Virus record (IMG/VR): IMGVR_UViG_3300025892_000048 | Span: 1 to 40,886 of that record | DNA from: a virus | DNA length: 40,886 bases | Strand: one strand, 5' to 3' | Shown here: positions 11,404-40,349 of the stretch, in pieces | How the letters are laid out: each line of letters starts with the position of its first letter | Position numbering within the stretch: position 1 is the first letter of the stretch | The notes under the pieces: generated by a model | Seen by the model: only the letters and a program-made list of their open reading frames with translations | The model's database searches: none | What the model was told of the DNA's origin: nothing | Made by a program: the position numbers and the translations under genes

Positions 11404-11901
11404 CTATTTATTTTTAATATATTCTTCATATTCTTCGTAAGTTAAAGCAACTATGTCTTTTTCTAATTGACTTACATCCTCTGTGTTGCTAAAGTTTTTA
11501 TGTGTATTATACCATATAGAATCTTCCTGAGCGTACAAAACGCGTTTAATACCAGGTGTAGATATAATAGTACATGGTGCAACGTGGTCTATTGTATCAT
11601 CCTCGTTCACTACAGTTATTTTGCCTGTAAGAAGAAAACACATATGAAGGTGCTTGTGTATAGCACCTATAACCACAGTACCTTTTTTCATTGTCATTTC
11701 ACGAATGTACACGCCATCCATAAAGAAATGTCTAATGGGAACTAACTCACTATCATTTACTATCGGTTTGTCTTTTGTCCCTGCTACTATAGTTTTTCCA
11801 TTAGCCATGCTTTTTAAAGCTGACTCTAATTCAGTAACAGAAGATCTAAAACCTGAAGCTAATTCGTTTTTATTTTTCAAGTCTAAGCCGCTATCTAACA
11901 T
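11404..11901 (-). CDS. Cupin-fold protein
   Basis: This 165-residue protein has a central cupin-like barrel. After a helical N-terminal half it shows REMTMKKGTVVIGAIHKHLH, then CFLLTGKITVV, and then a second strand set around STPGIKRVLYAQED with WYNTHKN. The HKHLH segment and the later His fit the first and second cupin metal-binding motifs, with the spacing of small cupins. Cupins bind metals or small ligands and also serve as structural barrels; the substrate is unknown. The gene lies in the tail and internal-protein block, so a virion or assembly role is possible. The upstream leader is A/T-rich with no Shine-Dalgarno sequence. Confidence 0.75.
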   Translation of the reverse strand: MLDSGLDLKNKNELASGFRSSVTELESALKSMANGKTIVAGTKDKPIVNDSELVPIRHFFMDGVYIREMTMKKGTVVIGAIHKHLHMCFLLTGKITVVNEDDTIDHVAPCTIISTPGIKRVLYAQEDSIWYNTHKNFSNTEDVSQLEKDIVALTYEEYEEYIKNK

Positions 11902-11945: not shown

Positions 11946-12344
11946 TTATTTACTACTGTGAAAAGCTTCCATGGCTACGCTAAACAACTCAGCCTCGCTT
12001 GAGGATGTGTTGACAAACTTAGCGCTCGCAAAATAACCAACCGGTGAGCTTAAATTAGCTTTAGTATCTTTAGTGAACATAATAAACTTACTACTTAGAC
12101 CACTACCCGCGCCTAAATCAGCTCCAGATAAGCTAGTCTCTACAATCATAGTGTACGCGCCATTAGCTGCAGGGTTGTTTATTTCTCTAATATCACCAAT
12201 TGTTATAACACTGTTATTAACGCCTGAATCATTAAAGCCAGTATCAAAACCGTCTTGAGTTGTGACATCTACGTAGTACGCTATATCTCCAACTTGGCAA
12301 GATACGTTTATAGGCTCTGTGAATGTTAGTGTTGCGTAAGGCAT
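11946..12344 (-). CDS. Small beta-rich structural protein candidate
   Basis: This 132-residue protein starts MPYATLTFTEPINVSCQVGD and consists of short beta-prone segments with Gly, Ser and Asn turns, ending EAFHSSK. Its start overlaps the stop of the giant tail gene in a TAATG junction at 12344-12346, which suggests coupled translation and perhaps a partner role. From memory, short proteins of this look follow the giant tail gene in other marine phages. The function is unknown; an accessory of the tail nozzle or fibre is the best guess. Confidence 0.65.
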   Translation of the reverse strand: MPYATLTFTEPINVSCQVGDIAYYVDVTTQDGFDTGFNDSGVNNSVITIGDIREINNPAANGAYTMIVETSLSGADLGAGSGLSSKFIMFTKDTKANLSSPVGYFASAKFVNTSSSEAELFSVAMEAFHSSK

Positions 12345-15300: not shown

Positions 15301-18300
15301 CCAAACTAGACACTGATCTAAGACCCTCTTGGTTTGAAAGAGCAATTACATGTCCTCGAGTAGCGTCTGTAAAATAAGTCTGATACGGCGTTGTCACCAT
15401 AGACTCTGGGTTGGTGGATATACCGTAATCACCCTGGTAAGGTGATGCTGAACCAACAACTTTACTACTTGCAACTAAATTAGAGCTTCCATCAGCATTA
15501 AATAACAAATCTTTATTTGTGTCTGCTCGAAGTATCTTGTCTTCACACAGCATCACTAACCGCGTGTCTTTGTTTAACAACGCTTGGATACTACCATATA
15601 TCGGGTTTAAGTCTTTAGTTATAGCCTCCGCCATTATAAACTGGTTGGTGTTATTAACACCGGACGTAGAGTTATATATACCAGACCATATTAAACCATG
15701 CTTTCTTCTTTCTTCTCTAGCTTGCTCTGCTAGAACCGTAGATGCTTTAACACCGTTGTCAAGTTGAGGTGCGTTAAAATCATCTCTTATTCTATCAGAC
15801 TCTACGCCATTTCCAAACGCCCAGCAGTTGTTCCAATCTAAATAATGACTTTGAAGATGTATAGCTTTATGCGAATCAGAGCGATCCGCTCCATGCATTG
15901 TTAATTTTTGAGTGGCCCCGCTTGAACTAAACGATACGTTTTTAACTAATAGTTTTAGTTCGTAATAGTTCCTTTTCTTAAATGTAACAGGTAGATTAGT
16001 TGTCACTGAGTAGCCGCTTGGTATCGCTGGTGTAAAACCAACGCTATCACTATTCCAAGAAGTAACAGTATACGTTTGTTCTGCTATAGCCTCCACACCT
16101 TGATCCGCGGCTTGAGCAGGTAACGTAAACGTTGACCCTATCGGTATTAGCTCCTCGTTCTTACCGTCTACAAGGTCTAAAGGTATTAGACCACTAGCTT
16201 GATAGTATATATCTAGATCAACGGACTCTTTAGGTTCTGTTTCCCATACGGCTGGATTATCTGTAAAATTATCTTTACTAGAAGAACCGTAAAAAGGCTC
16301 TAGTATTTCTATTATATCATTATCTAGAGTATCGTGTTTTAAAGCTCTTCTATAGTTAGCTGTATCGGTGCTTGCTGGACCGCCAACATCTGGGGACTTA
16401 GTGCCGTGAATAGGGTTGTAGCCATAAACATTTGTTTTACCTATAGCCGGCGTAACACCTATAGTCCATCTTTGTCTTAAGTTGTCACCTCTCCACTGGT
16501 AGTTTTGATTTGATCTTTTGTAATTTCTTATACCCCAAGCGCCACTCTCGTTGTTTGTTCCAGATATATAGACATCATTATTATCGTAACCGTCATAGTT
16601 GTAATTCGTGTAATCCGTGCTAGCGGTGGGGTGCGGGGTTGATATAACCGTATACTGCGTAAGCTCTGGGTCTTTTTGAAACCTAAAGACAGTACCTTCT
16701 TTAACTAGCTTTTTTATAAATAACCAGGCTTTTTCGTACTGTTCACCAGCTATATCTTTAAGCTCCATTTTTAGGTTAGGAATATCGTCTTGCCCTAAGC
16801 CCCACGAGTCTGTAAAACCCTCACCCATGCCAGACCACGAGATATCCATATAGCTTCTATCGTTACCAAAGTTACCCCATATACCTCTACTAGGTTGTGC
16901 TGAAAACTTTTTCATACTACCTGTTGTAGGGCCGTCATTTGGGTCGTCCTCAGCGTCACCGCCACTATTCCACCACTGCTCGTTTTCACTATCACCAAGT
17001 CTACCTGGCCTGTTATCGTCCCTACCATTAAAGGAGTACGCGGTAGCAGCATCTATAAAAAACATATTTAACTTTGCAACACCCTCCCAAAACTCTTGCG
17101 CAGCAGATCCAGTATTAGAGGTCTCATCGTTTATAGCGCGAATAGGGTTTTTATTAATATCATCGGTTGTAACAAAGAAAACCTCATTATCAGTGTCGTC
17201 ATAAGTAGCACCACCAGCCCATCTATACGCTGGGGTGTGGTGGTCATACTCAGTTGGGTGCAATTCTTTACCAGTGTTATCATAAGCACTGTTACCGTCA
17301 TCTGGCAAGTAGTTGGCCAGTAAATTCGGTACGCCAAGAGTGTTAACGAGATCTAAACCATTGTTGTTTATGTAACCCAATTTAAACGAGTCACTAACAA
17401 TCATTTCTGGATCACCTAAGTAGTTAAGTACATAGTTATTAAGGTTCTCGTCTTTAAATATCTTTACAAAAAACCTACCGTCAAACTCAGGCTTGTTTTC
17501 GATTTTTCTATCAAACAACTCAATAACAAGGTCACTTATGCCTGTGTCAAAAGAGTTACCCGTGCTAGTAAAAGCTATGTCATCTTCAAACTTGTCGTTG
17601 ATAGATATTTTATATGATGTTCCATCGAGCGTTAGACGTCTAACATCGTACTCTTTAGATATACTACCTCCTCCGTAGAATCTTAAACCTAAATTATCTG
17701 GAGTTAAAACATTTAAGTCAGATCCAAAAACACTTTCAAATGCACCTTGCTGTATGGTTATAAAAGTTCCATCTAGAGTTGGGTACCCACCACCAGAACT
17801 TCCAACGCTATTGTTTACGTTTGTAAGAGTGCCTAAAGATTCGCTAGTCGTCTTTACATAATCTGGAGCTTCGTTTTCTATAGCTAGAACTTTGTATCTA
17901 GCTTTATTTAAAACAGCGTTCGATCCACCGTGTTCACTTTTAAGTTCTAAAAACGTTTCTTCGTTAACCTTATTTCTATCTGAAGACGGAAATGATAACC
18001 ATATATTACCATCCCACGCATCGTACCATCGGTCCATGGCTAAAGTGTGGTACTCTACAGATGTTTCTTTTATATAGTAAGAATAGTAATCAGCCCAATC
18101 AGGAACTACGCTACTATTGTTAATAGAACACGACAACCTATTTCTGCTACCACAAACATCCTTAGGTGTTTTAATAGAAGATTTTTCGTGAGTTAAAACC
18201 GGTGTCTCTCTCCCGTACTTATCACTAAACACAACCCCAACCTGGTATGTGCGCAAGGACTTAACGGATGGCAAAGCTGGATCATCTGAAACGTCTTGTA

Positions 18301-25594: not shown

Positions 25595-27967
25595 TTAATT
25601 ACCAATTTGTGGATTAAACTTATCTAAGCCTAATCCGCCTCCTAGTATATCATTACCTGAAGACTCAAACTTTTTAGCATCTGCTTTCACTTTTTCTCTA
25701 CGGTCTTTACCTTGCTCTTTCATGCCCTCAACTCTTTCAGAAGACTGGCGCTCTAAATCCCGCAACTGGGTGTTCAACTCAAACTCATACATCATTAACT
25801 CTTTCTTTAACCTAACCTCTTCTTGAAGGTGTGTTAATTTGGTTTGAGCTTTAACTTGCTCTAGTTGCGTGTCTGCTTGAGCTTTTGCCTGATTTTTTTG
25901 TATCTCAGCATTAGCTGCGGCTTGTTGAGCTTGCGCATTTGCGGATGCTTGCGCTTCCATGTTCTGTTGCTGCATTTTCTGATCACGCTCTAGTTTTTTC
26001 TTACGTTTAACTTTTAAAACTTGATTAGCCAACCTAACATTCCTTATATTTCTAACATCAATTGCATCATCTAGTTCAATTAATTGCTGAGCTAAAGCTG
26101 TTTGTATATTGTTTTCAAGCATTTGCTTTTCCTCTTCGTCAGGTTCTAGCTCAATGAAAATACCAAAGTCATATAGATATAACTCAGACATTTCTTTTAA
26201 AGTAGCAACGTTGTGAGCTCCTACAGCTTGAACAAACGCATCAGCTGTTGGAGAGTACTCTAGTATATCTGATATTCTCAAAGATAAAGCCTCAGCTACT
26301 TCTGACGTTAAAAACATCGAGCTAAGTAGAATGTGTCTAGTAGCAACGTTAGAGTTTGCCGCAGCTAGCTTTTGAACACCAACTAAAGACTTAGGATCTG
26401 GAACACTAGCGTCTCTAGCTTCGTTTAAACCCGTAACGTCACGTATCATCTGTAGATAATAGTTATACGTTTGGATTAAACTTTGGATCTTGTTCTGCCC
26501 CGCAGAGTTAGCTATTTGCTGAATAGGTACTTTACCTGGGTTTGGATCACCGTCACCAGTAAACGATCTACCTATAACACTACCTGTTTGAAAGAACATA
26601 TTAAGCGCCTCTTGAGGATTGTAATTTGTTCCGTTACCTAAATCTATTTCAGCAAGTCCATCAGCGTCAAGGTATACTCCGTCAGGAACCATGCGCGACA
26701 TCACTTGCTGCAGCTTAAGATGTGTTAGCTGAATAGTATCAGCAAACCCAGTAATTCTACTTACAATAGACTCTATGCGACCCTCGTACATACGTGGAGC
26801 AACCAAAGCGTAATTCATCTTGACTTTGTTAAAGTCAGACTTTTCACGCATCATATTTTTAGCCTTCTCCCACTTTAACAGTCGATCAGTACCAAGTATC
26901 ATAGCGCCTTCAAAAACACACTCAACTGATCTTTGAAGTCTTATGTAACCCCCTTCTTTACCTTCTGGCGGATTAAAAGTGTCTGGCTTCTCTATAGCTT
27001 TATACCCACCAGTGCTTGTCTCTTTGATCTTATACACATCATTAGTGTATGTCCTGTAATTAAAGTACAGGACTTGAACTTTATTTTTATCATGTATATC
27101 AGCGTGGCGTGAGCCAGTGTATCTTTTGCTGGACCTTTTGTGAATGGACTCTAGATCCATTTCAGTTAGCGTGTCAAACTCTCTAGCTAGCTCATTAATA
27201 GGTATTGTCTTAACTTCACCTATGTAGTATAAGTCCTCAAAGTACGGTGAATCAGTATGAGAGTAAACTATATTAGCTGGATCTACATACTCAACAGTTG
27301 CGCCATCGCTTGAGTTAAAGCCAGTTTTAACACATCCTATACCTAGAACCGTTAAATCATATAAAAGCCTTCTTCTAGTGAGATCATATTTATTGCCATC
27401 CAACAGGTGGTTGATAGCTTGCTCTTCAGCTATTTCTACAGCTTGCTTATAGTCTAGCTGCATATGTAAGTCTAACTCTTCCTTCGTTTCTGGAAGTTCA
27501 GCTTTTTTGTTTTCGTATAAATCAACATTAAAAAGTTTTCCAGCTTGATCATTGTATGCTTGAGCGTCCATGTCTCTAAGCATAGACTCCATATAGTCTG
27601 TTCTTTTATCTACACCATATTGATCTTGAGAGTACGCTTTAACGTTAAACATTCTCTCAGACATACCGTTTACCACAATATCTACAAACTTTGGTATAAT
27701 AGGAACGGGCTTCCAATCTAAATTAAGATAAGACAAATCACCATTAATAGATAACTCATCCTTATACTTTTGTATCGACTGCTCGCCTCTAGCGTATAAT
27801 CTTAAGTTATGGTACTTACCTTGAGTACTAGAAAACCTATTGTTATAGCTATCCTTAAACCACTCCTGCTCTATAGCTTTAGCCACCTTGAGCCCGTACT
27901 CGGAACTCATTTTCTCTAGGTCCGGCACTGCTTGAGAAGGAAAATTTACATATACTGACTCAGCCAT
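25595..27967 (-). CDS. Portal protein
   Basis: This is a 790-residue protein directly after the large terminase (1-nt gap) and before the scaffold. The N-terminal and middle region is mixed alpha/beta with a typical wing and stem character (VNGMSERMFNVKAYSQD, DLTVLGIGCVKTGFNSSDGA, TYNYYLQMIRDVTGLNEARD). The C-terminal 150 residues form a long Gln/Ala/Lys-rich coiled coil (from about residue 640) ending in a Gly-rich tail. Portals of this size with a Gln-rich C-terminal helix are seen in crAss-like and related podoviruses. The portal forms the dodecameric DNA gate at one capsid vertex. Confidence 0.85.
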   Translation of the reverse strand: MAESVYVNFPSQAVPDLEKMSSEYGLKVAKAIEQEWFKDSYNNRFSSTQGKYHNLRLYARGEQSIQKYKDELSINGDLSYLNLDWKPVPIIPKFVDIVVNGMSERMFNVKAYSQDQYGVDKRTDYMESMLRDMDAQAYNDQAGKLFNVDLYENKKAELPETKEELDLHMQLDYKQAVEIAEEQAINHLLDGNKYDLTRRRLLYDLTVLGIGCVKTGFNSSDGATVEYVDPANIVYSHTDSPYFEDLYYIGEVKTIPINELAREFDTLTEMDLESIHKRSSKRYTGSRHADIHDKNKVQVLYFNYRTYTNDVYKIKETSTGGYKAIEKPDTFNPPEGKEGGYIRLQRSVECVFEGAMILGTDRLLKWEKAKNMMREKSDFNKVKMNYALVAPRMYEGRIESIVSRITGFADTIQLTHLKLQQVMSRMVPDGVYLDADGLAEIDLGNGTNYNPQEALNMFFQTGSVIGRSFTGDGDPNPGKVPIQQIANSAGQNKIQSLIQTYNYYLQMIRDVTGLNEARDASVPDPKSLVGVQKLAAANSNVATRHILLSSMFLTSEVAEALSLRISDILEYSPTADAFVQAVGAHNVATLKEMSELYLYDFGIFIELEPDEEEKQMLENNIQTALAQQLIELDDAIDVRNIRNVRLANQVLKVKRKKKLERDQKMQQQNMEAQASANAQAQQAAANAEIQKNQAKAQADTQLEQVKAQTKLTHLQEEVRLKKELMMYEFELNTQLRDLERQSSERVEGMKEQGKDRREKVKADAKKFESSGNDILGGGLGLDKFNPQIGN

Positions 27968-27968
27968 G

Positions 27969-30182
27969 CTATTTTATTATTTGGGAATTAAACCCTTTAT
28001 TGTTATATTTTGCCATACTAAAACCTACAGGTTGTCTTTCTACTTTTGCGTTAGGTGCGTATAAGTGTCTATTACAAGCCATAATAGCTAGACCAGAACT
28101 TATAGACGCATCGTGCTTAGTTCTTTTGTTTATGTCAAATCTAGCCCAATCGTTTAGCAACTCGTTAAAGTACACTGTTCCATAGTTACCTTCGCCTAAA
28201 TGTCCTACGTGATCTTGTATGTACATCTCTATAGCTGAGGCGTGAGCTTGTTTAATATCTTCACTTGAGTTTGGTATACCACCCACTTCTTTTTCAGCAA
28301 CTGATAACTTCTTCCAAGTTTTGTCTGGTCTGTTCATGCTGTAACCTCTATAACCTCTTCGGCGTAAGTAATACAGTAATCTAGGTTTGTTATTCTCTGC
28401 TAATAAAGGCATACCGTAAAACACTAAAGCCATTAACACATCTTCAAAAAATATCTCTGCGGTTTGTGGTCTTGCTATATACTCTAAGAAAAACGTGCTT
28501 GAAGGCGCGTCTTCCATAGAAAACTTTGTTAATCCGTGGAGCGCCCCTTTCGATCCTTTACCATCAACAGTACCGCTAATATCATAACTGTCACACCCGA
28601 ACGCGCCAATATGATCATTGCCTGGGAACTTAATACCATTTTTTGTTATTTGTTTATTTTGCAAATTAGCTGGTGGTACCCAGCTCACTTTAAATCTTCC
28701 ACCTGGATCTGGATGAAATATCACTTCTGTATCCTTAATGCCATTAACCCAACCAAAACTACCTGTCGTAGTATGAGCAGCGTGTCTACTTCCTTCGTTA
28801 TAGTCTATCTGCTCATATATTTTCATTAGGTTAAATATACTGCTTTTGCTCTCATCTCTGAAAGCGTGCTCCGTAGTTCTAGGAAACTGTCGGTAAAACT
28901 CATTTAAAGCGTCTTGATCATCTTTAAGACCATCAACTTCATTCTCCCAGCTATCTACAACCCCAATATCTATTAGTTCACCGTCTGGTCCCAGTCGTTC
29001 TCCATCACGTGGATTATCAAAGACTGGAAATCCGAATTCGTCAATAAATCCTTCATAGTTCCATTCCATAGGGATAAAGAGAGAATACAGGCCAGACTTT
29101 GTTTGTCCATTACGGTTTCTCCTAGAAACATCTGAGTCATTGTATAGCTTTTTAAAATTACTACCTCCTTTATCTAACGCGTTTGAAGTAGACCCCATAA
29201 GGCATTTCCCTACGATTCTACTTCCAAGTCTTAAGCAAGTCTTTGTTACTCGCCAGTTATTTAATATATTATCAGGTCTCTCCCACTTACCACTCTCATC
29301 GTGCACCAACAAGTTTAACTTTTCACCATCGTAGCTGTTGTCACCTGTATTCTTCCAGTCTATCGTAGTGTCAAGACCAGCAAGCTCCTCTAGCTTCTCG
29401 TTACTCTGTATTTTCTTACGAGTAAACTTAGTGGAAGGTACTCGGTATGCTAACTCGGATTTCGGACGATCCATACCATCCTGTATAGGTTTAAAGAAGA
29501 AAGGGTAATTAATTGATATAGGTACCACTTTATCTGTAAACATTTTCTTCGCATCGGCACCAGACTTAGATAAGATCCCATATCTACTATCACTCGATAT
29601 AGTGGCTAAGTTAACTGTTTCTGCAGAGGACATAAAAGAAAAACCTGAACGACGGTTCTTAAGGTAGCACATTCCATAGCATCTCTTATCTGCCTTGCAG
29701 GCTTCCCAGAATATAAAGAATAACCGATTGGCCTCTCTAAAGTCTGGTGCACCCACGTCAATTTTACTCCATTGCAGGTACATATAGTGACTACCAGTTA
29801 TATACGTTGGTTTACCGTTATTCATAAACCAATGCCCTTCGTCCCTACGCCTGAACTCTTCGTCAATATACCCGTGCCACTTCTCTTTTTGTTCGTCTGG
29901 ATAACTTCTCCAGTCAAATATAGTTTTTATGCGGCTAAGTTCTTTAGGTTGATCTATCTTCTTCCACTTGTTGCTTTCGTGCTTGAAAACATTAGTAGGT
30001 TTAGGTAGAGCAATTTTAAAACCCTGTATGTCGTATATCTCACCTATAACACCGGTTCTAGATAAGACCACTATATCGTGATCTTTATCATAACCGTACT
30101 TCCACTTCTTACCTCTGTTCAGCCTAGTTAAAGTGGTTTTCTTTATAGGCTCTATTATTTTTAATAATGTTTGTTCGTACAT
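27969..30182 (-). CDS. terL: Terminase large subunit (packaging ATPase and nuclease)
   Basis: This 737-residue protein has the two terminase domains. The ATPase part shows a Walker-A-like NRRSGFSF near residue 178 and a Walker B LNLLVHDESGKW near 295. The nuclease part starts near residue 530 with FGCDSYDISGTVDGKGSKGA, where the Asp residues fit the first metal-binding strand of an RNase H-like fold. The N-terminal 170 residues are an extension with WYFM-rich segments (EGHWFMNNGKPTYITGSHYM). Its start overlaps the preceding stop as TAATG at 30182-30184, and the portal follows 1 nt after its stop, so translation is tightly coupled. It cuts and pumps DNA into proheads. Confidence 0.92.
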   Translation of the reverse strand: MYEQTLLKIIEPIKKTTLTRLNRGKKWKYGYDKDHDIVVLSRTGVIGEIYDIQGFKIALPKPTNVFKHESNKWKKIDQPKELSRIKTIFDWRSYPDEQKEKWHGYIDEEFRRRDEGHWFMNNGKPTYITGSHYMYLQWSKIDVGAPDFREANRLFFIFWEACKADKRCYGMCYLKNRRSGFSFMSSAETVNLATISSDSRYGILSKSGADAKKMFTDKVVPISINYPFFFKPIQDGMDRPKSELAYRVPSTKFTRKKIQSNEKLEELAGLDTTIDWKNTGDNSYDGEKLNLLVHDESGKWERPDNILNNWRVTKTCLRLGSRIVGKCLMGSTSNALDKGGSNFKKLYNDSDVSRRNRNGQTKSGLYSLFIPMEWNYEGFIDEFGFPVFDNPRDGERLGPDGELIDIGVVDSWENEVDGLKDDQDALNEFYRQFPRTTEHAFRDESKSSIFNLMKIYEQIDYNEGSRHAAHTTTGSFGWVNGIKDTEVIFHPDPGGRFKVSWVPPANLQNKQITKNGIKFPGNDHIGAFGCDSYDISGTVDGKGSKGALHGLTKFSMEDAPSSTFFLEYIARPQTAEIFFEDVLMALVFYGMPLLAENNKPRLLYYLRRRGYRGYSMNRPDKTWKKLSVAEKEVGGIPNSSEDIKQAHASAIEMYIQDHVGHLGEGNYGTVYFNELLNDWARFDINKRTKHDASISSGLAIMACNRHLYAPNAKVERQPVGFSMAKYNNKGFNSQIIK

Positions 30183-30457
30183 TACTTAGATCTTCCTTCA
30201 GCAAAACCCTTAAAGACGTTTGCTTTCTTTTCTTCAGGCTCACGGCCTTCAAGCAAGTTCTCCTCTTCTTGGATTCTGGTTAATATCTCAAAGGCATCGA
30301 AGATAGCAAGCTTTTTTGTAGCAGCAGCGTTCTTGAGTCTGTCCGCGGTGATATCATCACCTGAATCAACTATAGCTTCTTTAGCCACCTTGATCAACTC
30401 TTCAACGGCTATTTGCCCAGCTTGGATTATACTCTTCTTCGTCTCCTTGATATTCAT
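30182..30457 (-). CDS. Small terminase subunit candidate
   Basis: This is a 91-residue, wholly helical, charged protein (MNIKETKKSIIQAGQIAVEE; DRLKNAAATKKLAIFDAFEI). It lies immediately before the large terminase with a TAATG junction, and its start lies 56 nt inside the end of the upstream gene. The size, helical character and position fit a small terminase or other DNA-recognition partner, but I see no clear helix-turn-helix. The assignment depends mainly on position. Confidence 0.6.
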   Translation of the reverse strand: MNIKETKKSIIQAGQIAVEELIKVAKEAIVDSGDDITADRLKNAAATKKLAIFDAFEILTRIQEEENLLEGREPEEKKANVFKGFAEGRSK

Positions 30458-30995
30458 ATTTAATTGTAATAAAATTAGATAAAACTCGGTACATCCTTTG
30501 ACCGTCCACTACAAACTCAAATTCACTTTTAGGTCTAAACCCAACTAGATCACCTACGTTTACCGTGCCATCTGAGTGCTTTACAACACCTATGTGCGGT
30601 CTTTCAGAATCAGCGTTTAATTGACTATTGTCTTTGATAGGCTGTACGAAGCAATATCCCCTGGGACATATCCAATTACCATCTCTTTTGTATAGGTAGA
30701 TTTGGTCTTGCGTTACTAGATATTTACCTTCCTCAAGAAAAGATCTACTGTTTCTTTCTCTACCTTTTACATCATGCCATCTTCTAAAAACGTTGTGATG
30801 TAATGTCACTATATCACCTACTTTGGGATTCAAAGGAGCTCCAGCGCTAGGTACAGATAAGATTCTAGCTTCTCTGTTTACGTGCTGATGGTTAAAAACC
30901 TCAGTGTTTAATATTAACTCCTTGCCTCCAACTTTTTTACTGTTGTTATACCTTTCACCTAATGGTTCTACAACATAGTTGTAAACTGAGTGCAT
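30402..30995 (-). CDS. Tandem GroES-like (double Cpn10) protein
   Basis: This 197-residue protein reads as two GroES-like halves. The first half has YVVEPLGERYNN, then a loop with GGKELILNTEV, then ILSVPSAGAPLNPKVGDIVT, and closes EGKYLVTQDQIYLYKRDG, matching the GroES order (RPLxDR, GG-hydrophobic mobile loop, KVGDIV, a final ESDILAI-like strand). The second half repeats it: GYCFVQPIKD, IGVVKHSDGTVNVGDLVGF and VDGQRMYRVLSNFITIKYE, but with a short loop lacking GG-hydrophobic residues. Chloroplast Cpn20 is the known tandem form. TAATG coupling links it to the upstream gene, and it lies just before the terminase block. The fold call is by motif alignment by eye. Confidence 0.6.
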   Translation of the reverse strand: MHSVYNYVVEPLGERYNNSKKVGGKELILNTEVFNHQHVNREARILSVPSAGAPLNPKVGDIVTLHHNVFRRWHDVKGRERNSRSFLEEGKYLVTQDQIYLYKRDGNWICPRGYCFVQPIKDNSQLNADSERPHIGVVKHSDGTVNVGDLVGFRPKSEFEFVVDGQRMYRVLSNFITIKYEYQGDEEEYNPSWANSR

Positions 30996-31501: not shown

Positions 31502-31735
31502 TTAAATAGTTGTTTCTGTATACCATTCTCCATCTACATTGTTTAGGATAGCTAGTATCTCGCTATGTGTGTATTGTGTTTTTCCGTCTAAAAAAGTCGG
31601 TGTATCCCCTTCAAACTTAACAAAGGTTTTTGTGTCGTCGTTATTGTAGCGCAGCGTGTCGGCACTTGTTTCTAAAACCTGCGAAAAGTCCACCGAACTA
31701 ACATCCGAAGAATCTATAATTACGTATTTTCTCAT
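31502..31735 (-). CDS. Small unknown protein (MRKYVIIDSS)
   Basis: I choose ATG 31735 (MRKYVIIDSSDVSSVDFSQV), giving 77 residues, because the TAATG junction at 31735-31737 links it to the LamG gene; a longer frame from 31759 reads back into that gene. The protein is mixed alpha/beta with a C-terminal TQYTHSEILAILNN segment. No family is recognised. Similar short genes are, from memory, common near virion genes of marine phages. Confidence 0.6.
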   Translation of the reverse strand: MRKYVIIDSSDVSSVDFSQVLETSADTLRYNNDDTKTFVKFEGDTPTFLDGKTQYTHSEILAILNNVDGEWYTETTI

Positions 31736-32517
31736 TACCAAGGTTTTACTGATGACCACGTAGGTCCGTTAGACAAAGTAAACGGAGCGTTGCTGTTTCC
31801 AGAGCTATCAGCGGTAGTAGTACCAGTGTTCTCATCCATTTTGTAGTATCTCTGTAAGTCACCTGAAGAAGTGTAATCACCAGAGTTGCTAGTTAATAAC
31901 GGGTTGTTATCATATATCTCTGTAATTTCCGCAGCGGTAAGTACCGAGTCCCAAGTGGCTATTTGATCTAGATACTGCTTGTAAAAAGCAATACTAGCTA
32001 AATTTGATGTCGTGAAAAGAGTCGCACCTGTATGAGACTCTAAATTTGTAGAAGAAGCCACTGATGCAGTGCTATTAGTAGAAACTTCACTGCCATCTAT
32101 ATAGCATTTGTTTGCCCTATTAGTGCCAGACCCGTCGCTTGTAAGTACAACGTGATGCCAGGTGTCAGCGCTCATGTTAGAATTAAAGGATGTGTTGATA
32201 ACGGTTGTAACGACTCCTGTAGCGCCAACTACGGCAATATCTCCACCGGCATCGGAATATATCCAAAAATAGTTAGATGGGTAAGCGCCTTTCCAAAATA
32301 TCGTCTGGGTTGTGGTTGTGTCAAATCTAATATAAAAAGAAAGCGTCCAACTACCTGTAGCTAGATCGTCAAATATATTGTCGCCATCAGGTTGGGTTAA
32401 CATATCATTTGTTCCATCCATAAGGATAGAGTACGAGTTAGTGTTGCTAACACCTCTCATCGCTATTGATGAGCCTAATTGACTTGAGTTAATTAAACCT
32501 ATACCTAGTCCTATCAT
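31735..32517 (-). CDS. LamG-like lectin-fold virion protein
   Basis: This 260-residue protein has a concanavalin A/LamG-type core: FDDLATGSWTLSFYIRFDTT near residue 50, DTWHHVVLTSDGSGTN near 120, CYIDGSEV near 140, and a typical end IATWDSVLTAAEITEIYDNN near 190 followed by YYKMDENTGTTTADSSGNS. This pattern is common to LamG_3 domains in secreted and phage adhesion proteins. It probably binds glycans, either as a capsid decoration or receptor-contact protein. It begins in a TAATG junction with the upstream FGQ-type gene and is coupled to the next gene. Confidence 0.8.
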   Translation of the reverse strand: MIGLGIGLINSSQLGSSIAMRGVSNTNSYSILMDGTNDMLTQPDGDNIFDDLATGSWTLSFYIRFDTTTTQTIFWKGAYPSNYFWIYSDAGGDIAVVGATGVVTTVINTSFNSNMSADTWHHVVLTSDGSGTNRANKCYIDGSEVSTNSTASVASSTNLESHTGATLFTTSNLASIAFYKQYLDQIATWDSVLTAAEITEIYDNNPLLTSNSGDYTSSGDLQRYYKMDENTGTTTADSSGNSNAPFTLSNGPTWSSVKPW

Positions 32518-33491: not shown

Positions 33492-33929
33492 TTATTTTTT
33501 TACTTTTTCTATTGTTCTACCCGCAAAATATGCTCCAAAGGCAGTCAACATTAATATTTCTAATAAAGACACGTATGAGTCTTTTACGTTGAAAGGCAGC
33601 GTATCCATACTGTCAAACACCATAGTTAGCATGAACATAGTCATAAGAGCTAACAAGGTTAAAGGTCTAATTAGTTTAGCTAGCTTTACATCGCTACCCA
33701 TATCAGATGCCCATCGTGAAGACACATTTTCTTGGAACTTTACCTCTGCATCTATAATACGCTGAGCCTCTTCAGAGTCTACAGCTGGATCCTTATCTAT
33801 AAGGTTTTTGACAATACCTAGAGCTCCGCTATCCGGGAGAAGATCTCCCACTACACCTAGTATATTCGGAGCTTTGTCAGCTAACCAAGAACCCAACTTA
33901 GTGTCTTTTATTTTCTTTTTATTATGCAT
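33492..33929 (-). CDS. Holin-like membrane protein (3TM type)
   Basis: This 145-residue protein has a weakly hydrophobic N-terminal segment (APNILGVVGDLLPDSGALG), then a charged helical middle and two strong membrane segments: LIRPLTLLALMTMFMLTMVF near residue 90 and SLLEILMLTAFGAYFAGRTI near 120, ending in a basic IEKVKK tail. The order, with RPLT before the first main segment and YFAGR-like residues after the last, fits the GTA/phage 3TM holin family. It overlaps the upstream HExxH gene by 8 nt. Holins form inner-membrane lesions for lysis; family assignment is by eye. Confidence 0.7.
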   Translation of the reverse strand: MHNKKKIKDTKLGSWLADKAPNILGVVGDLLPDSGALGIVKNLIDKDPAVDSEEAQRIIDAEVKFQENVSSRWASDMGSDVKLAKLIRPLTLLALMTMFMLTMVFDSMDTLPFNVKDSYVSLLEILMLTAFGAYFAGRTIEKVKK

Positions 33930-34281
33930 AATTCTCTGCGTTCATAGCTCTTTGCTCCCAGTGGAATATTTCGCTTCCCTCTTCGTGCCACTCGCCGTTG
34001 TATTTAATCTTACCATCTTTTCTAGGATATGTAACCCCATCCGCTCTAACCCAGTCATCTCCATAGGCTATTCTTCCTTCCTTTATCTCCTCAGCGTGTT
34101 TACCTTCATGAGCCTCTATCTTGTTCCATTGCTCGCTACCAGGTTTGACGCTTTTATCTATGTAGATACTACCATCCATATTAGCCTCTCCAAGAATACC
34201 ATCGTCTAGATCTTTCCTAAGAATAGGTGTATTACTAGAGTTCTTTATATCCCTATTTTCTTTACCTAACTTAAAACCCAT
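33922..34281 (-). CDS. Putative zinc peptidase (HExxH) next to holin
   Basis: This 119-residue protein contains EAHEGKHAEEI, an HExxH motif near residue 58, flanked by hydrophobic and acidic residues as in zinc metallopeptidases, with later Glu residues (WEQRAMNAE) as possible third ligand. It starts MGFKLGKE, a variant of the tag on other small genes here. It is translationally coupled by TAATG to the winged-helix-like gene and overlaps the holin-like gene, so a role in lysis or in virion maturation is possible. No cell-wall binding domain or export signal is visible. Catalytic activity is inferred only from the motif. Confidence 0.6.
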   Translation of the reverse strand: MGFKLGKENRDIKNSSNTPILRKDLDDGILGEANMDGSIYIDKSVKPGSEQWNKIEAHEGKHAEEIKEGRIAYGDDWVRADGVTYPRKDGKIKYNGEWHEEGSEIFHWEQRAMNAENYA

Positions 34282-34721
34282 TATCTATCTGTATCTCGTA
34301 TCATATCATCTATGGACTTATTATAGACCTTATCTGTGTATGATTTGTTATTGAAAAATATACTTCGCTCTGAGGTCGGCAGATCCTCTTCGCCTAATAG
34401 GATACGGTATATCCTAGTGACTAGCTGGGAGCATTTGAAAGAAGTCTTAAACACAGAGAACTTTATACTCGTTCTATTCCTATGTCTCCAAACTTCTATC
34501 CATCCAGCTGATCGTAGTTTCTCCCATCTTTTCTTATCCCAAGAATATGTGTAAGCACCCTCGATGAATTCGTTTCGGGTAAATCTACCCTTATGATCTA
34601 GGTATATCAATAACTCTAGATCGGCATCTGTTAACCCATAAGTCTTACAGGCCCACTTACGCGTGAGCCTGTAGTACTTAAGGATATTCATATCACGCAA
34701 ATCTTGCGCTGTTAATCGCAT
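34281..34721 (-). CDS. Winged-helix DNA-binding-like protein
   Basis: This 146-residue protein has a helical N-terminal half (RLTAQDLRDMNILKYYRLTR; GLTDADLELLIYLDHKGRFT) followed by a recognition-like helix and wing (DKKRWEKLRSAGWIEVWRHR). This is the arrangement of MarR-like winged-helix proteins. The C-terminal half is basic and helical (VTRIYRILLGEEDLPTSERS; NKSYTDKVYNKS). It might regulate late genes or bind virion DNA. It follows the paralogue array by 3 nt and is coupled by TAATG to the HExxH gene. Confidence 0.6.
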   Translation of the reverse strand: MRLTAQDLRDMNILKYYRLTRKWACKTYGLTDADLELLIYLDHKGRFTRNEFIEGAYTYSWDKKRWEKLRSAGWIEVWRHRNRTSIKFSVFKTSFKCSQLVTRIYRILLGEEDLPTSERSIFFNNKSYTDKVYNKSIDDMIRDTDR

Positions 34722-34724
34722 TTA

Positions 34725-35450
34725 TTAAGCTGCGTCAATAGCAAACGTAACTGTAGTCATACCTGCTGCGTTGTCTCCGAAGTATTTTTCGTTGAATGCG
34801 TCTGCAAATTTAACCATCTTACCTTGATTCCTTGGATCGCAAATAACATCCGCGATAGCTTCAGCAACCAAGTGGTGCTTATTAGAACCGTGTGTTATAG
34901 TAACTTTATCTTGTGCCCCAGTGTCACCAGTAGTAGGTGGGAAGGTAAGTAAAGTATTAGCAGCATCAACAGCCTCTATATTTAAGAGCGTAGATGCGGC
35001 TTTAACTAAAGCTTGATCAGCAGCGTAAGGTTTTAGCAATGTTAGTTTAAAACCATTTTCGCCAGCTGTTGAGCTTTGGGTTACACCATAAACAGCGTCT
35101 TCAGCCACGGTTTGTAAATGTAGATCACCGTCACCAGTTCCTTCTGCATAAGATATAGCGTACGGTGATATTTCGATATTAGCTTGATCATCAGCTACCG
35201 TTCCGTAGTGAGTCCCAAACAAGTGTACATCAGCACTACCGTCATTATGAGCAGCATCCATAGTTAATTTAGCCATGCCGTTATGAAGCCATCCTTCACC
35301 ACCCGCCGCTTGAGCTACGGTAATAGCGCTTACAGGCATATTTACGAAAGGAGCCCCATCAGCAACAGTGACATCTTGATCAGCCGTAGCAGTTGAAGCC
35401 TTTACAGCTGTTATGTCGTCTGAAAAATATAAGTATACGTCGTTTTCCAT
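34725..35450 (-). CDS. Virion-like protein, YF-family member C (long)
   Basis: This 241-residue protein starts MENDVYLYFSDD and ends with a segment (KVTITHGSNKHHLVAEAIAD ... FADAFNEKYFGDNAAGMTTV) that aligns with the C-terminus of the 108-residue gene (DTVAVVFSG ... MADAINSKYFSYAGG). The middle is an extra Ala/Thr/Asp-rich beta insertion. It is the third of three tandem relatives with an initial LYF motif. Probable capsid decoration or other virion protein; function unknown. Confidence 0.65.
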   Translation of the reverse strand: MENDVYLYFSDDITAVKASTATADQDVTVADGAPFVNMPVSAITVAQAAGGEGWLHNGMAKLTMDAAHNDGSADVHLFGTHYGTVADDQANIEISPYAISYAEGTGDGDLHLQTVAEDAVYGVTQSSTAGENGFKLTLLKPYAADQALVKAASTLLNIEAVDAANTLLTFPPTTGDTGAQDKVTITHGSNKHHLVAEAIADVICDPRNQGKMVKFADAFNEKYFGDNAAGMTTVTFAIDAA

Positions 35451-35461
35451 TTTCTTGTATT

Positions 35462-35767
35462 TTATAGAGTGATAGCACCTACGCTGGTGATATGCTCAAG
35501 GTTAGTAAATGTAGAACTGTTGTCATCTCCGACAACAATAAACCCGTCTTTAGGGTTTCCACACATTGCTGCGTGTACAGAGTCTAACGCTTCAGTAGTC
35601 ATACCTGGCGTAAAGTTTATTGCAACTGTAGATGTGTCTAACGCATTATCAACTTTCTTGAAATGCATTAAAAACTTCTCAGAATCAGTTGGCTCAGTAC
35701 CTAGATAGTTCTTTGCTGGAACCATTAAGGCATCATTTGAAGCCGTTTCAAAATATAGAAATTTCAT
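35462..35767 (-). CDS. Virion-like protein, YF-family member B
   Basis: This 101-residue protein starts MKFLYFETASNDALMVPAKN and has STVAINFTPGMTTEALDSVH, corresponding to the D-x-V-x-I-x-F segment followed by a helix in its two neighbours, and a C-terminal NLEHITSVGAITL strand. It is small, compact, alpha/beta and without catalytic residues. It lies 25 nt after the 108-residue gene and 11 nt before the long relative. Confidence 0.6.
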   Translation of the reverse strand: MKFLYFETASNDALMVPAKNYLGTEPTDSEKFLMHFKKVDNALDTSTVAINFTPGMTTEALDSVHAAMCGNPKDGFIVVGDDNSSTFTNLEHITSVGAITL

Positions 35768-35792
35768 AGTTATTCTTTTAGTTAGTTAATAA

Positions 35793-36119
35793 TTAGTTTT
35801 GTGTAACAGTAGGTGTTCCAGATAAAACTCCTCCTGCGTAACTAAAGTATTTACTATTAATAGCGTCCGCCATAGTTATAAAAGGTTTTCTAGAATTGAT
35901 TGCACCTGCTACACCTCTAGCTAAATCTCTAAAAGATCCAGAAAATACTACAGCCACAGTGTCTTCTTCTGCTTCCTCAAAATCTTCGTTTTGAAAATAG
36001 AAGGTGGCTCCAGTTGCTCCTGTCTGATCTAAACCCATAAATCTAGATGCTTTATAAGCACCAGATCCAGCATTTGAAAGATCAGCATCAGCAAAGTAAA
36101 GAATTGTTTCTTTGTTCAT
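35793..36119 (-). CDS. Virion-like protein, YF-family member A
   Basis: This 108-residue protein starts MNKETILYFADADLSN and includes ATFYFQNEDFEEAEEDTVAV and a helix FRDLARGVAGAINSRKPFIT followed by MADAINSKYFSYAGG. It is the simplest member of the three-gene family that includes the next two genes. A 72-nt gap with a 7-nt tandem repeat lies in front of it, the only sizeable gap in this block, and may hold a promoter. The function is unknown. Confidence 0.6.
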   Translation of the reverse strand: MNKETILYFADADLSNAGSGAYKASRFMGLDQTGATGATFYFQNEDFEEAEEDTVAVVFSGSFRDLARGVAGAINSRKPFITMADAINSKYFSYAGGVLSGTPTVTQN

Positions 36120-36150
36120 GTTGTTTTTAATTAATTGTTTTTGATTTACC

Positions 36151-36178
36151 GTTTAAGGTTTAAGGTTCAAGGTTTAGG
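36151..36178. repeat. Short tandem repeat GTTTAAG x4
   Basis: Four adjacent 7-nt units: GTTTAAG, GTTTAAG, GTTCAAG, GTTTAGG. It lies in the intergenic gap between the SET gene stop (36192) and the YF-A start (36119). Two units are exact and two have one change. A/T runs flank it on both sides. Confidence 0.8.
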
Positions 36179-36191
36179 TCTAATATATATA

Positions 36192-36563
36192 TCACACGTA
36201 ATATGCTTTTTCTAAAGAGTGTTGGCGGTAGTTTATGAGTATCTCCTCGTTACAGTTGATAAGCTTAACTGAAACCATTAGTAGATCACCATGCTTAGTA
36301 TAATAAAACCTAGCGTTGTTATTGTCACTATGGTTAGTCCATCGACCTAATACTGTTCTGTATTTTTGATCTATGCTACCTAGCCCAATAACACAACCGG
36401 GTTCTATACACTTACTAGCAAATACCCCAACACCGTGTATATTTGAGTCCGATTTGTGATATATATCACTATCAAACTCAACCACGTTGTCTATGTCAAC
36501 CATCGCTTGCATCTCTTCTTGAGACACACCAACGTCAACTAGCATTTGTTTATAACCACTCAC
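36192..36563 (-). CDS. SET-domain protein (lysine methyltransferase-like)
   Basis: This 123-residue protein shows a compact SET core: SNIHGVGVFASKCIEPG (residues 40-56; the usual S-xx-HG-x-GVFA start), TNHSDNNNARF (76-86; the NHS SAM-binding motif) and NCNEEILINYR (103-113; the catalytic Tyr region at Y112). The pre- and post-SET Cys clusters are absent, and it is much shorter than eukaryotic enzymes. SET enzymes transfer methyl from SAM to protein lysines. It starts with GTG at 36563 in a GTGA overlap with the groES stop, so it is translated with the chaperonin genes. The target protein is unknown; a chaperonin, virion or host protein are options. Confidence 0.75.
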   Translation of the reverse strand: MSGYKQMLVDVGVSQEEMQAMVDIDNVVEFDSDIYHKSDSNIHGVGVFASKCIEPGCVIGLGSIDQKYRTVLGRWTNHSDNNNARFYYTKHGDLLMVSVKLINCNEEILINYRQHSLEKAYYV

Positions 36564-36829
36564 TCTATTAGAACAACATCTCTTGCTCGGATTACATGGT
36601 ACATTGTATCTGCCCAGGTTATACCATGCCCAGCGTGTTTGTCGTAATATATAATATCTTTATCTTTTAGGCCTTCAACTAGATTACCTGTAGAGATAAT
36701 CGTAGCTTTAATATACCTATTTGTCTCATCTAATTCCTCGGTAAGAAGCAGACCCCCAACTTTCTTGGGACCTACTTTTTCTACGTCTACTACAATGTAA
36801 TCATTAATTGCTTTCATTTGCTCTAGCAT
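36560..36829 (-). CDS. groES: Co-chaperonin GroES (Cpn10)
   Basis: This 89-residue protein aligns with GroES through AINDYIVVDVEKVG, a mobile loop KKVGGLLLTEEL (E. coli has GGIVL), IKATIISTGN, a short roof loop, KDKDIIYYDKHAGHG and a final VIRARDVVLIE strand. It forms the heptameric lid of the GroEL cage. Against E. coli GroES (97 residues) the roof hairpin is shortened. ATG 36829 overlaps the end of groEL by 26 nt; ATG 36817 (MKAINDY) is an equally good start. It follows groEL and is followed by a SET gene in a GTGA overlap. The groEL-then-groES order is the reverse of the bacterial operon. Confidence 0.9.
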   Translation of the reverse strand: MLEQMKAINDYIVVDVEKVGPKKVGGLLLTEELDETNRYIKATIISTGNLVEGLKDKDIIYYDKHAGHGITWADTMYHVIRARDVVLIE

Positions 36830-38375
36830 TTGAGATTACACAATCTGCGGATATAATAGTTGACACCACTGACACAGCGTTCTTCAAAGCTGACTTAGTC
36901 ACGAGCACTGGATCTACGATACCAGCTTCTAGCATGTCAACGCATTCTCCAGATATAACATCTATACCGCAGTAGTCTTTAGTGTCACACGCTACGTCTT
37001 TGTTTATACCAGCGTTTTCTAGTATAGTGTAAAAAGGAGACTTAATAGCTTCAAGCAGTATCTCCTCCCCGACGGAGTCGGCGGAAATTTTTTGAGATGC
37101 CCACCAAAGTGCTGAACCGCCACCTGGGATAATACCTTCTTTCAAAGCTGCTTTAGTAGCATATATAGCGTCTTCAACCCGGTCTTTCTTTTCTTTGAGC
37201 TCTACCTTTGATCCAGCACCTACTTTTACTATACCCACAGATCCGGATAGCATAGCTAGCCTAGACTCAAGCTTCTTTTTAATAAAGCCGTTCTTTTCAT
37301 CTTCAACCTTCTTAGCTACCTCAGCAATTCTCTCTTCTATATCCTCTGTAACTCCGTCCAGTGTAATCACTGTGTTTGAATCACTAGTTATAGCGTACTC
37401 AGCTTCACCTAGGTGTTCTACAGAGATAAGATCTAAATCATCACCTAGCTCTTCGTTGATAACTGTAGCACCTGTTAATATAGCTAGATCTTCTGTAGCG
37501 TCCTTTTTAGTAGGGCCAAAGCCTGGTAAATCGATAATGTTAACTTTAATATTACCTTTCACCTTGTTCATCATAAGAGCGGCTTTTACTGACTGAGCTA
37601 CTGGAGCTACTATGAGTAAAGCACGGCCCTTCTTGATAACATGCTCTAGTATGCTTTGTACCTTACGAACGTTTGGTATTTCGCTAGATACTACTAAAAC
37701 ATAGGGGTTGTCAAGCTCAGCTAAGTGTTTATCAGTGTTAGTGATGAAGTGAGGCGACGTAAGCCCGCAGTCAACCTGCACTCCATCAACTAACTCCACA
37801 TGCGTTTCATCAGTGTCACCTTCCTCCATGAGTACGACACCATCCTTACCTACTTTTTGGTAAGCTTCCGCAATAATGCTTCCAAGGGCTTTATCATTAT
37901 TGCAACTAATCGCGCTAACAGCGCTAAGCATGTCTCCTTCAACTTCAATAGCCCTGCTTTCAAGATGTTTAACAACTTTCTCCAGGCCTGAACTAATACC
38001 TGCTTTGACTCCTCTAATAGATTCTTTAGCATGCTTCTTTTTATTTACTTCCTTTAGAAGTGATTCAGCGAGGACAGTAGCCGTTGTGGTACCGTCACCC
38101 GCTTCTTTCACTGTGTTACTGGCAGCCTCCTTAATTAAGGTGGCACCTATATTTTCAACCGGATCATATAAGACTACGCTTTGGGCAACGGTTACTCCGT
38201 CTTTTGTTATGACCGGCATACCGCGAGCATCTTCATATATAACGCATTTTCCCGATGCGCCAAGTGTACTTTTCACGGCTTGGGCTAGCTTAGTTACGCC
38301 AGCAATTATTTTGTTCTTAGCGTCTCGACCAAAGTTTAGTTCCTTGATCAATTCACTAGGTAAATTGTACTCCAT
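36804..38375 (-). CDS. groEL: Phage-encoded GroEL chaperonin
   Basis: This 523-residue Hsp60 is complete. ATP site signatures are TKDGV (57-61, Asp59), GDGTTTAT (93-100, Asp94), and DRVEDAIYATKA with GIIPGGG in the C-terminal equatorial part (E. coli D398 region). The apical domain has LPGFGPTKKD in place of APGFGDRRK. Features of note: a 7-residue N-terminal extension, GASGK for GPKGR near residue 39, an apical substrate-groove segment GLTSPHF in place of GYLSPYF, and no C-terminal GGM tail (it ends NARANESN). It folds proteins in a double-ring cage with GroES. It follows a 5-nt repeat leader without Shine-Dalgarno. Likely clients are virion proteins, by analogy with phage chaperonins. Confidence 0.93.
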   Translation of the reverse strand: MEYNLPSELIKELNFGRDAKNKIIAGVTKLAQAVKSTLGASGKCVIYEDARGMPVITKDGVTVAQSVVLYDPVENIGATLIKEAASNTVKEAGDGTTTATVLAESLLKEVNKKKHAKESIRGVKAGISSGLEKVVKHLESRAIEVEGDMLSAVSAISCNNDKALGSIIAEAYQKVGKDGVVLMEEGDTDETHVELVDGVQVDCGLTSPHFITNTDKHLAELDNPYVLVVSSEIPNVRKVQSILEHVIKKGRALLIVAPVAQSVKAALMMNKVKGNIKVNIIDLPGFGPTKKDATEDLAILTGATVINEELGDDLDLISVEHLGEAEYAITSDSNTVITLDGVTEDIEERIAEVAKKVEDEKNGFIKKKLESRLAMLSGSVGIVKVGAGSKVELKEKKDRVEDAIYATKAALKEGIIPGGGSALWWASQKISADSVGEEILLEAIKSPFYTILENAGINKDVACDTKDYCGIDVISGECVDMLEAGIVDPVLVTKSALKNAVSVVSTIISADCVISNARANESN

Positions 38376-38742: not shown

Positions 38743-39270
38743 CTACGAATTTCTATTTTGATAAGCTCTCTGCATGACCCTGTACTCCGCGTCTGTTGGC
38801 TCTGTTATGCCTAAATTCTTAAAGTAGTCACCTTCAAAAGCCTTAATGCCACCTACAGGTGCTTCTTCTGAGGCACGCTTCCTAGCTTCAAGGGTAGAGT
38901 TTAACTCAGCACTCCTTGCTTTCGATATATTTGACTGACCTGCGGAGTTTAGCTGACCTGTTCTAGAAAGCTTAGCAATTTGATCTTCCGAGAGACCATC
39001 AAGCCCTTCAGCAAGCATTTCCTTCACTTGGCTTTCTTTGTATTTACCGTGTACCTCAGGTGTTTTTGTTTTTGCGTCTTCAGCAACCTCCATAGCCTCT
39101 GGATTTGTGGTTGTGCCTTGCTCATACTCGCTCTCAACCCTAGCCTCACGCGCTGCCTTCTCACGAAGTTCTTGCTCGGTTGGTATATGTCCCGGCTCGT
39201 GGTCACGCATCGGAGATGAACCCATCATTTTAAAGCTAGGGGTGTTGCTTGATTTTAATTTAAACGCCAT
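38743..39270 (-). CDS. Tagged helical protein (MAFKLKSS...)
   Basis: This 175-residue protein is highly charged and helical, with many Glu, Lys and Ala (QELREKAAREARVESEYEQG; SKARSAELNSTLEARKRASE), probably disordered or coiled coil. It opens MAFKLKSSNTPSFKMMGSSP, which contains the shared N-terminal tag and then a second copy-like FKMMGSSP. The neighbours upstream carry the same tag. No enzymatic motif is visible. A virion-internal or scaffold-associated role is inference. Confidence 0.6.
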   Translation of the reverse strand: MAFKLKSSNTPSFKMMGSSPMRDHEPGHIPTEQELREKAAREARVESEYEQGTTTNPEAMEVAEDAKTKTPEVHGKYKESQVKEMLAEGLDGLSEDQIAKLSRTGQLNSAGQSNISKARSAELNSTLEARKRASEEAPVGGIKAFEGDYFKNLGITEPTDAEYRVMQRAYQNRNS

Positions 39271-39282
39271 AGTTCTTTGTTT

Positions 39283-39558
39283 TTATTTAGAATCATCAAT
39301 CTTTTTTTCTCTATCGCGCCCAACTTTATAAGCTTTTACTGGATCGAAAGTTGTTTGTCTAGAGCCATCGCCAAGCAGAATAGATCTACCTGGACCTTGA
39401 TCCCACACGTTTTTCAATCCCATACCTACTTGAGAAGCTTTATCATACATAGACTGGGCAGTTGATTTCTTATTTCCTTTGTTCTCATCTCCTTCGTTGT
39501 TATTAAACGGAGCCCCGTAGTTTCGAGCCATTGGGCTCCCTTTCATTTTAAATGCCAT
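39283..39558 (-). CDS. Tagged small protein (MAFKMKGSPM)
   Basis: This 91-residue basic, Gly/Asn-rich protein starts MAFKMKGSPMARNYGAPFNN and later has STAQSMYDKASQVGMGLKNV and RDREKKIDDSK. The tag and its codons (ATGGCATTTAAAATGAAA) are identical to those of the partial gene at 121 and the gene at 40349. It is 5 nt after the stop of the latter. The function is unknown. Confidence 0.6.
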   Translation of the reverse strand: MAFKMKGSPMARNYGAPFNNNEGDENKGNKKSTAQSMYDKASQVGMGLKNVWDQGPGRSILLGDGSRQTTFDPVKAYKVGRDREKKIDDSK

Positions 39559-39563
39559 AATGT

Positions 39564-40349
39564 TTATTTTTTATATTTTTTTTTAGCGAAACTGTGGTTA
39601 TACTTACCAGTCTTCATGTTTTTCATAGCTGAAGAAGCCACGTTTTTTTCAAGAGCATCAGCCGCTTTTTGTGTGTTAGCTTTCTTATCAGCGTCCGCTA
39701 GGAGCTTCTTGTTTATTTTAGCGTCTTTAGCGTCGGCTCTCTTCGCGCGTCGAGCTTTACCGCCTCTACCAGTAACTTCTTTAGCCTTTGCTTTAGCACT
39801 TTTCTTAGACTGCTTACGCATGTCCTTTTTAGTATCTTGAAGATCACGGTAGTTTTTACGCTCCTGGCGATCCATGCCTTCCATTGCGGCTTTCCTATCT
39901 TTACGCTTTACCTTTTTAATATCTGGAGATGGTGTTTGATCAACTTTCATCTTACGATCTTTGTTGACTACGGTGCTCTTTCCGCTTGTTCTACCGCTTG
40001 ATACAACTAACGTGCGCCCTTTATTTTTCGATGTTGTTGTTTCACCAGACTGGTTAACCCCTCTCGTAGCTCCATCCACTGCTTTTGGCTTTGGCTTTGA
40101 CATTGGCTTTGGTGCCGCTACTTTAGTTGTAGAGTCTTGAGCCCATCCTCTGCGAGTATACTCATCGCGCCTAGCTTGGCTGTTTAAAGCAAAGTCCTTC
40201 ATGCTTTTGCCTGAGGATGGAGATGGAGATCGTTTTCCACCGCTGCGGTTTTCTGTTTGACCATCTACCATGATGGTTTCTTTTTTAAGCGCAGAAGCGT
40301 GGGACGCTGTTCCCGAATGCATTGAGGAACCTTTCATTTTAAATGCCAT
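39564..40349 (-). CDS. Tagged Lys/Arg-rich disordered protein
   Basis: This 261-residue protein starts MAFKMKGSSMHSGTASHASA and is dominated by Lys, Arg, Ala, Ser and Thr, with low-complexity blocks (RKDRKAAMEGMDRQERKNYR; KKSAKAKAKEVTGRGGKARR; AKRADAKDAKINKK). It is strongly basic and has no predicted fold, similar to histone-tail-like DNA-condensing proteins. It could be packaged with DNA or act as a capsid-interior filler; this is inference. It lies 12 nt after the stop of the first gene in the window's transcription unit. Confidence 0.6.
   Translation of the reverse strand: MAFKMKGSSMHSGTASHASALKKETIMVDGQTENRSGGKRSPSPSSGKSMKDFALNSQARRDEYTRRGWAQDSTTKVAAPKPMSKPKPKAVDGATRGVNQSGETTTSKNKGRTLVVSSGRTSGKSTVVNKDRKMKVDQTPSPDIKKVKRKDRKAAMEGMDRQERKNYRDLQDTKKDMRKQSKKSAKAKAKEVTGRGGKARRAKRADAKDAKINKKLLADADKKANTQKAADALEKNVASSAMKNMKTGKYNHSFAKKKYKK

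Follow-up and report, generated by a model that had tools for sequence, protein, structure and literature searches.

Phage-encoded GroEL has been known in marine Bacteroidetes phages since 2017 and, of 78 environmental genomes assigned to the phi38:1 group, 36 carry it (PMC5332604). Methylation of phage proteins, including GroEL and capsid proteins, was first reported in 2026. In the Cellulophaga phage phi38:1, GroEL is methylated at K27 in virions and at K121, K133, K241, K321 and K361 in cells, and MCP is methylated at K359 (Stai et al. 2026, PMC13288928). According to the same authors, no methyltransferase is known in these Cellulophaga phages, and host protein methylation shifts in Cellulophaga infected by them (PMC13288928). 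We found no SET gene in phi38:1 or MW202828 by profile search, and tblastn with the SET protein described below matched no Cellulophaga or Flavobacterium phage. A SET gene was thus rejected as the source of the phi38:1 methylation, which comes from elsewhere. The closest known stand-alone viral SET protein is vSET of the chlorella virus PBCV-1 (PDB 1n3j/3kma; ~120 aa), which belongs to a eukaryotic virus and has a histone target. SET domains are also found in the phrog_34170 proteins of Pseudoalteromonas phage PH1, Rhodoferax phage P26218 and phage zth2-2, where they follow a cupin/tail-fibre-like domain within one fusion protein; no co-chaperonin gene was detected in the vicinity of these genes. 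Elemovirus genomes carry groEL-groES and a long GroES gene before TerL. No publication on SET proteins of phages turned up among the papers we searched.

The stretch of DNA analysed here (the window) is a 40.9-kb virus record. Its lineage markers are the terminase large subunit, TerL (27969..30182, minus strand; phrog_6681, E 1.7e-167), and the portal protein (25595..27967, minus strand; phrog_6547, E 2.8e-137). Isolate phages with a related TerL have Flavobacterium, Cellulophaga, Tenacibaculum and Maribacter as hosts, suggesting that the host of the window virus is probably a marine flavobacterium. A holin gene (33492-33929, minus strand; phrog_3427, E 1.6e-20) and a gene for a Laminin G/concanavalin-like domain protein, possibly a host-binding protein (31735-32517, minus strand; Pfam E 1.6e-12), were also identified. 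Two exceptionally long ORFs (2585 and 2617 aa) occupy 1523-9280 and 12344-20197 (minus strand), the first having its main match in phrog_32588, of unknown function. Four otherwise different proteins (33922-34281, 38743-39270, 39283-39558 and 39564-40349, minus strand) have an M[AG]FK[LM] N-terminus in common. Across 300 lineage loci, a start of the form M[AGPSNT][FY]K[LMI] was observed in 258 of 4530 ORFs and at 15 of 22982 internal Met residues; the motif looks like a shared signal, perhaps for packaging or cleavage.

As in Elemovirus, the window carries a groEL-groES pair and a long GroES gene before TerL. The original prediction described groEL, groES and a SET-domain gene in overlapping frames, and these ORFs and overlaps, all on the minus strand, were as described; all three proteins pass the curated Pfam cut-offs. 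groEL encodes a group I chaperonin of 523 aa (36804..38375, minus strand; Pfam Cpn60, E 3e-55; phrog_5725, E 3.5e-135), which keeps the ATPase Asp residues equivalent to E. coli D52, D87 and D398. Its C-terminus, SNARANESN, is not the GGM tail that is common in group I chaperonins without being strictly defining for them. All six reported phi38:1 GroEL positions are Lys in the deposited protein, and four of the six are kept in the window GroEL. groES (36560..36829, minus strand; Pfam Cpn10, E 1.8e-7; phrog_3188, E 4.5e-11) encodes 89 aa, or 85 aa if Met5 at 36817 is the start. The predicted 26-nt overlap with groEL holds for the 89-aa start but becomes 14 nt with Met5, whose equivalent is the groES start in most relatives.

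The gene order, groEL before groES, had been described as reversed. This order is confirmed but is the usual one in the clade, as groEL is followed by an overlapping or adjoining groES in 80/80 related IMG/VR loci among the matches listed, as well as in Flavobacterium elemo phages and in MW202828. The more distant phi38:1 has cpn10 before groEL. These and the other locus frequencies given here refer to near relatives among the matches listed (at most 80 per scan), with E-values of related loci relative to the candidates and with contigs that are often fragments. groES was present in every related locus listed. We therefore rejected the reversed order as a remarkable trait; the unusual part of the locus is the SET gene.

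The SET gene (36192..36563, minus strand; Pfam SET, E 5e-7) encodes a stand-alone minimal SET-domain protein of 123 aa, and its GTG start lies in a GTGA overlap with the groES stop, so that the two genes have 4 nt in common. The Pfam SET score was 30.5 bits against a cut-off of 22.4; the match covers only profile positions 52-104. A single-sequence search of the window protein against the PDB matched no SET protein; the family profile alone did, reaching vSET with an E-value of 2.3e-11 and MLL SET domains with one of 1e-12. The AlphaFold2 model (pLDDT 85.7) had vSET as its best PDB fold in Foldseek (3kma; E 1.4e-6, probability 1.00, TM about 0.6) and also matched SAM-dependent SET enzymes. The GxG motif (G44, G46), N77 and H78 of the NHS motif, and Y112 of the catalytic Tyr motif are invariant in 34 diverse relatives. 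Both the profile and the predicted structure thus bear out the original assignment to the SET family. The protein resembles vSET in being a stand-alone viral SET protein of similar size but comes from a phage, has an additional N-terminal helical extension of ~35 aa and is ~20 residues shorter between GxG and NHS. A full-length SET-I region, which is variable in the SET family and not strictly defining, is absent, with 82 profile positions aligning to 105 vSET residues. The first 35 residues share homology with the linker helix before SET in the phrog_34170 cupin-SET fusions, which belong to the same SET subfamily. The window protein is 70% identical to the SET of L040 and 50-58% identical to others. 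Pairwise dN/dS was 0.14-0.41 in all pairs with estimable dS, dS being saturated between the window and L170. The existence of such relatives and these ratios indicate that the SET ORF is not a chance ORF and that it is under purifying selection.

A second co-chaperonin gene, overlooked in the original prediction, lies upstream of TerL and adjoins it (30402..30995, minus strand; 197 aa; phrog_13932, 'co-chaperonin GroES', E 5e-15). Its product is a predicted tandem Cpn10. The window copy has no Pfam match, and a profile search of the tandem Cpn10 against the PDB matched nothing at the sequence level. The AlphaFold2 model, of modest confidence (pLDDT 70), matched chains Q and R of 7ekq over ~200 columns, its full length, with E-values of 5e-4 to 7e-4, and also matched many single Cpn10/GroES folds, GroES by halves. 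In our reading, the two 7ekq chains correspond to the tandem Cpn20/Cpn23 cap in a Chlamydomonas Clp complex.

In most related phages it is this tandem Cpn10 gene that SET adjoins. Stand-alone SET loci of the TerL lineage were collected through their SET sequence, irrespective of where the gene lies, and every distinct one with enough context lies against a GroES-type gene or one gene from it. Five arrangements were observed. The first is groEL-groES-SET (the window and L169 of the same type, L170 and L171). In the second, SET overlaps the start of the tandem Cpn10 gene (L173, L202, L205-L214, L225, L226 and L290), with L206 and L208 carrying a SET-less groEL-groES pair a few kb upstream. The third is tandem Cpn10, a single 2OG-oxygenase-like gene and then SET (L174-L199), and the fourth is tandem Cpn10 directly followed by SET (L387). 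In the fifth, SET is convergent with groES, their tails overlapping, behind a 146-aa gene (L329); this contig also holds TerL and a tandem Cpn10. The L329 genome, G044, is a MAG labelled Aliivibrio that holds at least four contigs with a TerL of the window lineage; these phage contigs are mis-binned, and the label is no guide to the L329 host. The SET reading frame overlaps the co-chaperonin gene in four of the five arrangements. Only ~7-10% of the stretch from groEL to portal lies within 30 bp of a GroES-type gene, and the chance of about four independent direct-contact placements is, as a rough estimate given an uncertain count of independent events, of the order of 1e-4. In some short loci with a stand-alone SET (L200, L203, L204 and those of the cyanophage type), the stretch seen contains no GroES-type gene; in the SET tree, L203 and L204 cluster with SETs of other lineages. 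The same tree places the window type inside the second arrangement (support 87/81 and 90/93), which suggests that SET moved from the tandem Cpn10 gene to groES. The predicted co-regulation of SET with a chaperonin thus gains from the recurrent adjacency to co-chaperonin genes. The groEL-groES-SET trio itself recurs in L170 and L171, both clearly different from the window, but is rare.

The same neighbourhoods also allow a different reading, in which SET is an accessory, moron-like gene that settles in insertion-tolerant gaps near co-chaperonins and has a substrate unrelated to folding or virions. We consider this a doubtful but serious possibility. SET is confined to few phages: of 77 distinct full-length groEL loci reaching the downstream co-chaperonin gene, all near relatives among the matches listed, 73 have no SET, two have SET behind groES and two have it beside the tandem Cpn10 gene. 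The window and L040 fall into different supported clades of the groEL tree, suggesting that SET was gained at least twice or often lost. The spacer 3' of SET (36120..36191) can be aligned to the one that immediately follows groES in the SET-less L001, L002, L003, L012 and L014, indicating that SET behind groES was cleanly inserted or, in those relatives, cleanly deleted. What follows groES is itself variable among relatives. In some SET-less relatives groES is directly followed by the 146-aa gene (phrog_17028; 34281..34721, minus strand, in the window), the gene that SET overlaps in L329, and the stretch between groES and the 146-aa gene in the window (34725-36119, minus strand) encodes small proteins with LYF-type N-termini and is hypervariable among relatives. 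The gap behind the tandem Cpn10 gene likewise receives 2OG-oxygenase genes in phages without SET. In L174-L199 and L353-L408, a 2OG-Fe(II)-oxygenase-like gene often separates tandem Cpn10 from TerL, whether SET is present or not. The oxygenase match in Pfam does not reach the cut-off, and we make no claim of a demethylase. A chance occupant of such gaps is, however, difficult to reconcile with five arrangements, including an opposite orientation and two co-chaperonin loci, that all touch a GroES-type gene or lie one gene away, and with frames that mostly overlap that gene.

A link to the virion is suggested by relatives of SET in other phages. Podoviruses from other lineages encode this SET as the C-terminal part of ~290-aa proteins whose N-terminal half is cupin-like and matches the PHROG annotations 'short tail fiber protein' and 'tail fiber adhesin'. 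Packaging and tail genes surround these fusion genes. The domain family that precedes SET in the fusions is present in the window, by alignment, as a separate gene for a cupin/tail-fibre-like protein of 165 aa (11404..11901, minus strand; phrog_12032, E 1.3e-31; phrog_24280; phrog_34170, E 4e-19). In L158, cupin and SET are separate neighbouring genes, and in cyanophage P-RSM6 SET adjoins gp25 and a baseplate wedge gene. Within the groEL-bearing lineage, the cupin gene was found in 6/6 contigs with SET, the window included, versus 8/22 without (one-sided Fisher about 0.008, or about 0.03 with near-copies merged). It was found in none of the eight contigs with SET behind tandem Cpn10, and cupin as an obligate SET partner was rejected; the link is only partial.

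From the SET fold with its conserved motifs, the purifying selection, the co-chaperonin linkage and the cupin fusions we infer that the SET protein would act as a late protein-lysine methyltransferase serving virion morphogenesis, a reading to which we give about an even chance. The methylated lysines of GroEL and MCP in the related phi38:1 also speak for it. The minimal enzyme would be produced in the late phase, alongside the phage chaperonin, and would most likely methylate lysines of phage morphogenesis proteins, that is, virion proteins passing through the chaperonin; the chaperonin and co-chaperonin themselves would be the second choice. Since phi38:1 proteins are methylated without SET, the SET enzyme of the window may stand in for, or add to, an activity of the host. 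A 261-aa protein encoded upstream of groEL on the same strand (39564-40349, minus strand) consists of 27% Lys+Arg; this basic protein may bind DNA or belong to the virion interior, and it is a possible SET substrate. Several observations count against SET as a morphogenesis enzyme. These are the methylation of phi38:1 in the absence of SET, the rarity of SET in the lineage, which makes it dispensable, and a SET-I region much shorter than that of vSET. In addition, among groEL, groES, tandem Cpn10, TerL and portal, no Lys column convincingly tracked SET presence. The original proposal of phage-directed folding plus methylation is partly supported, by the SET profile, the fold and the co-chaperonin linkage but not by the rarity of the trio or the lysine comparison. 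A narrower version, in which SET would be recruited by GroES or the tandem Cpn10 and methylate chaperonin or virion proteins during folding, is in our judgement unlikely.

SET could instead be directed at the host, methylating proteins such as EF-Tu, DnaK or surface and gliding proteins, and thereby favour infection or block other phages. The altered host methylation in infected Cellulophaga would fit such a role. The phages of that study are without a known methyltransferase, so the effect needs no SET gene, and SET genes sit in virion and chaperonin neighbourhoods; we regard a host target as quite improbable. Least probable of all is a non-catalytic SET, a SAM- or protein-binding scaffold or a structural component within a tail or co-chaperonin complex, for which the short SET-I region, the fusion to a cupin/tail-fibre-like domain and the existence of PR-domain relatives without activity could be cited, but which is at odds with the invariance of Tyr112, N77 and H78 in the 34 relatives.

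A chaperonin-coupled modification step would, to our knowledge, be known from no other virus. If methylation is indeed coupled to folding in this lineage, phages would use a dedicated methyltransferase-chaperonin module. Because a rare gene is repeatedly kept beside co-chaperonin genes, SET becomes a candidate enzyme for the reported methylation of proteins in phages. A phage-encoded enzyme family can now be named as a candidate for phage protein methylation, and the question is directly testable.
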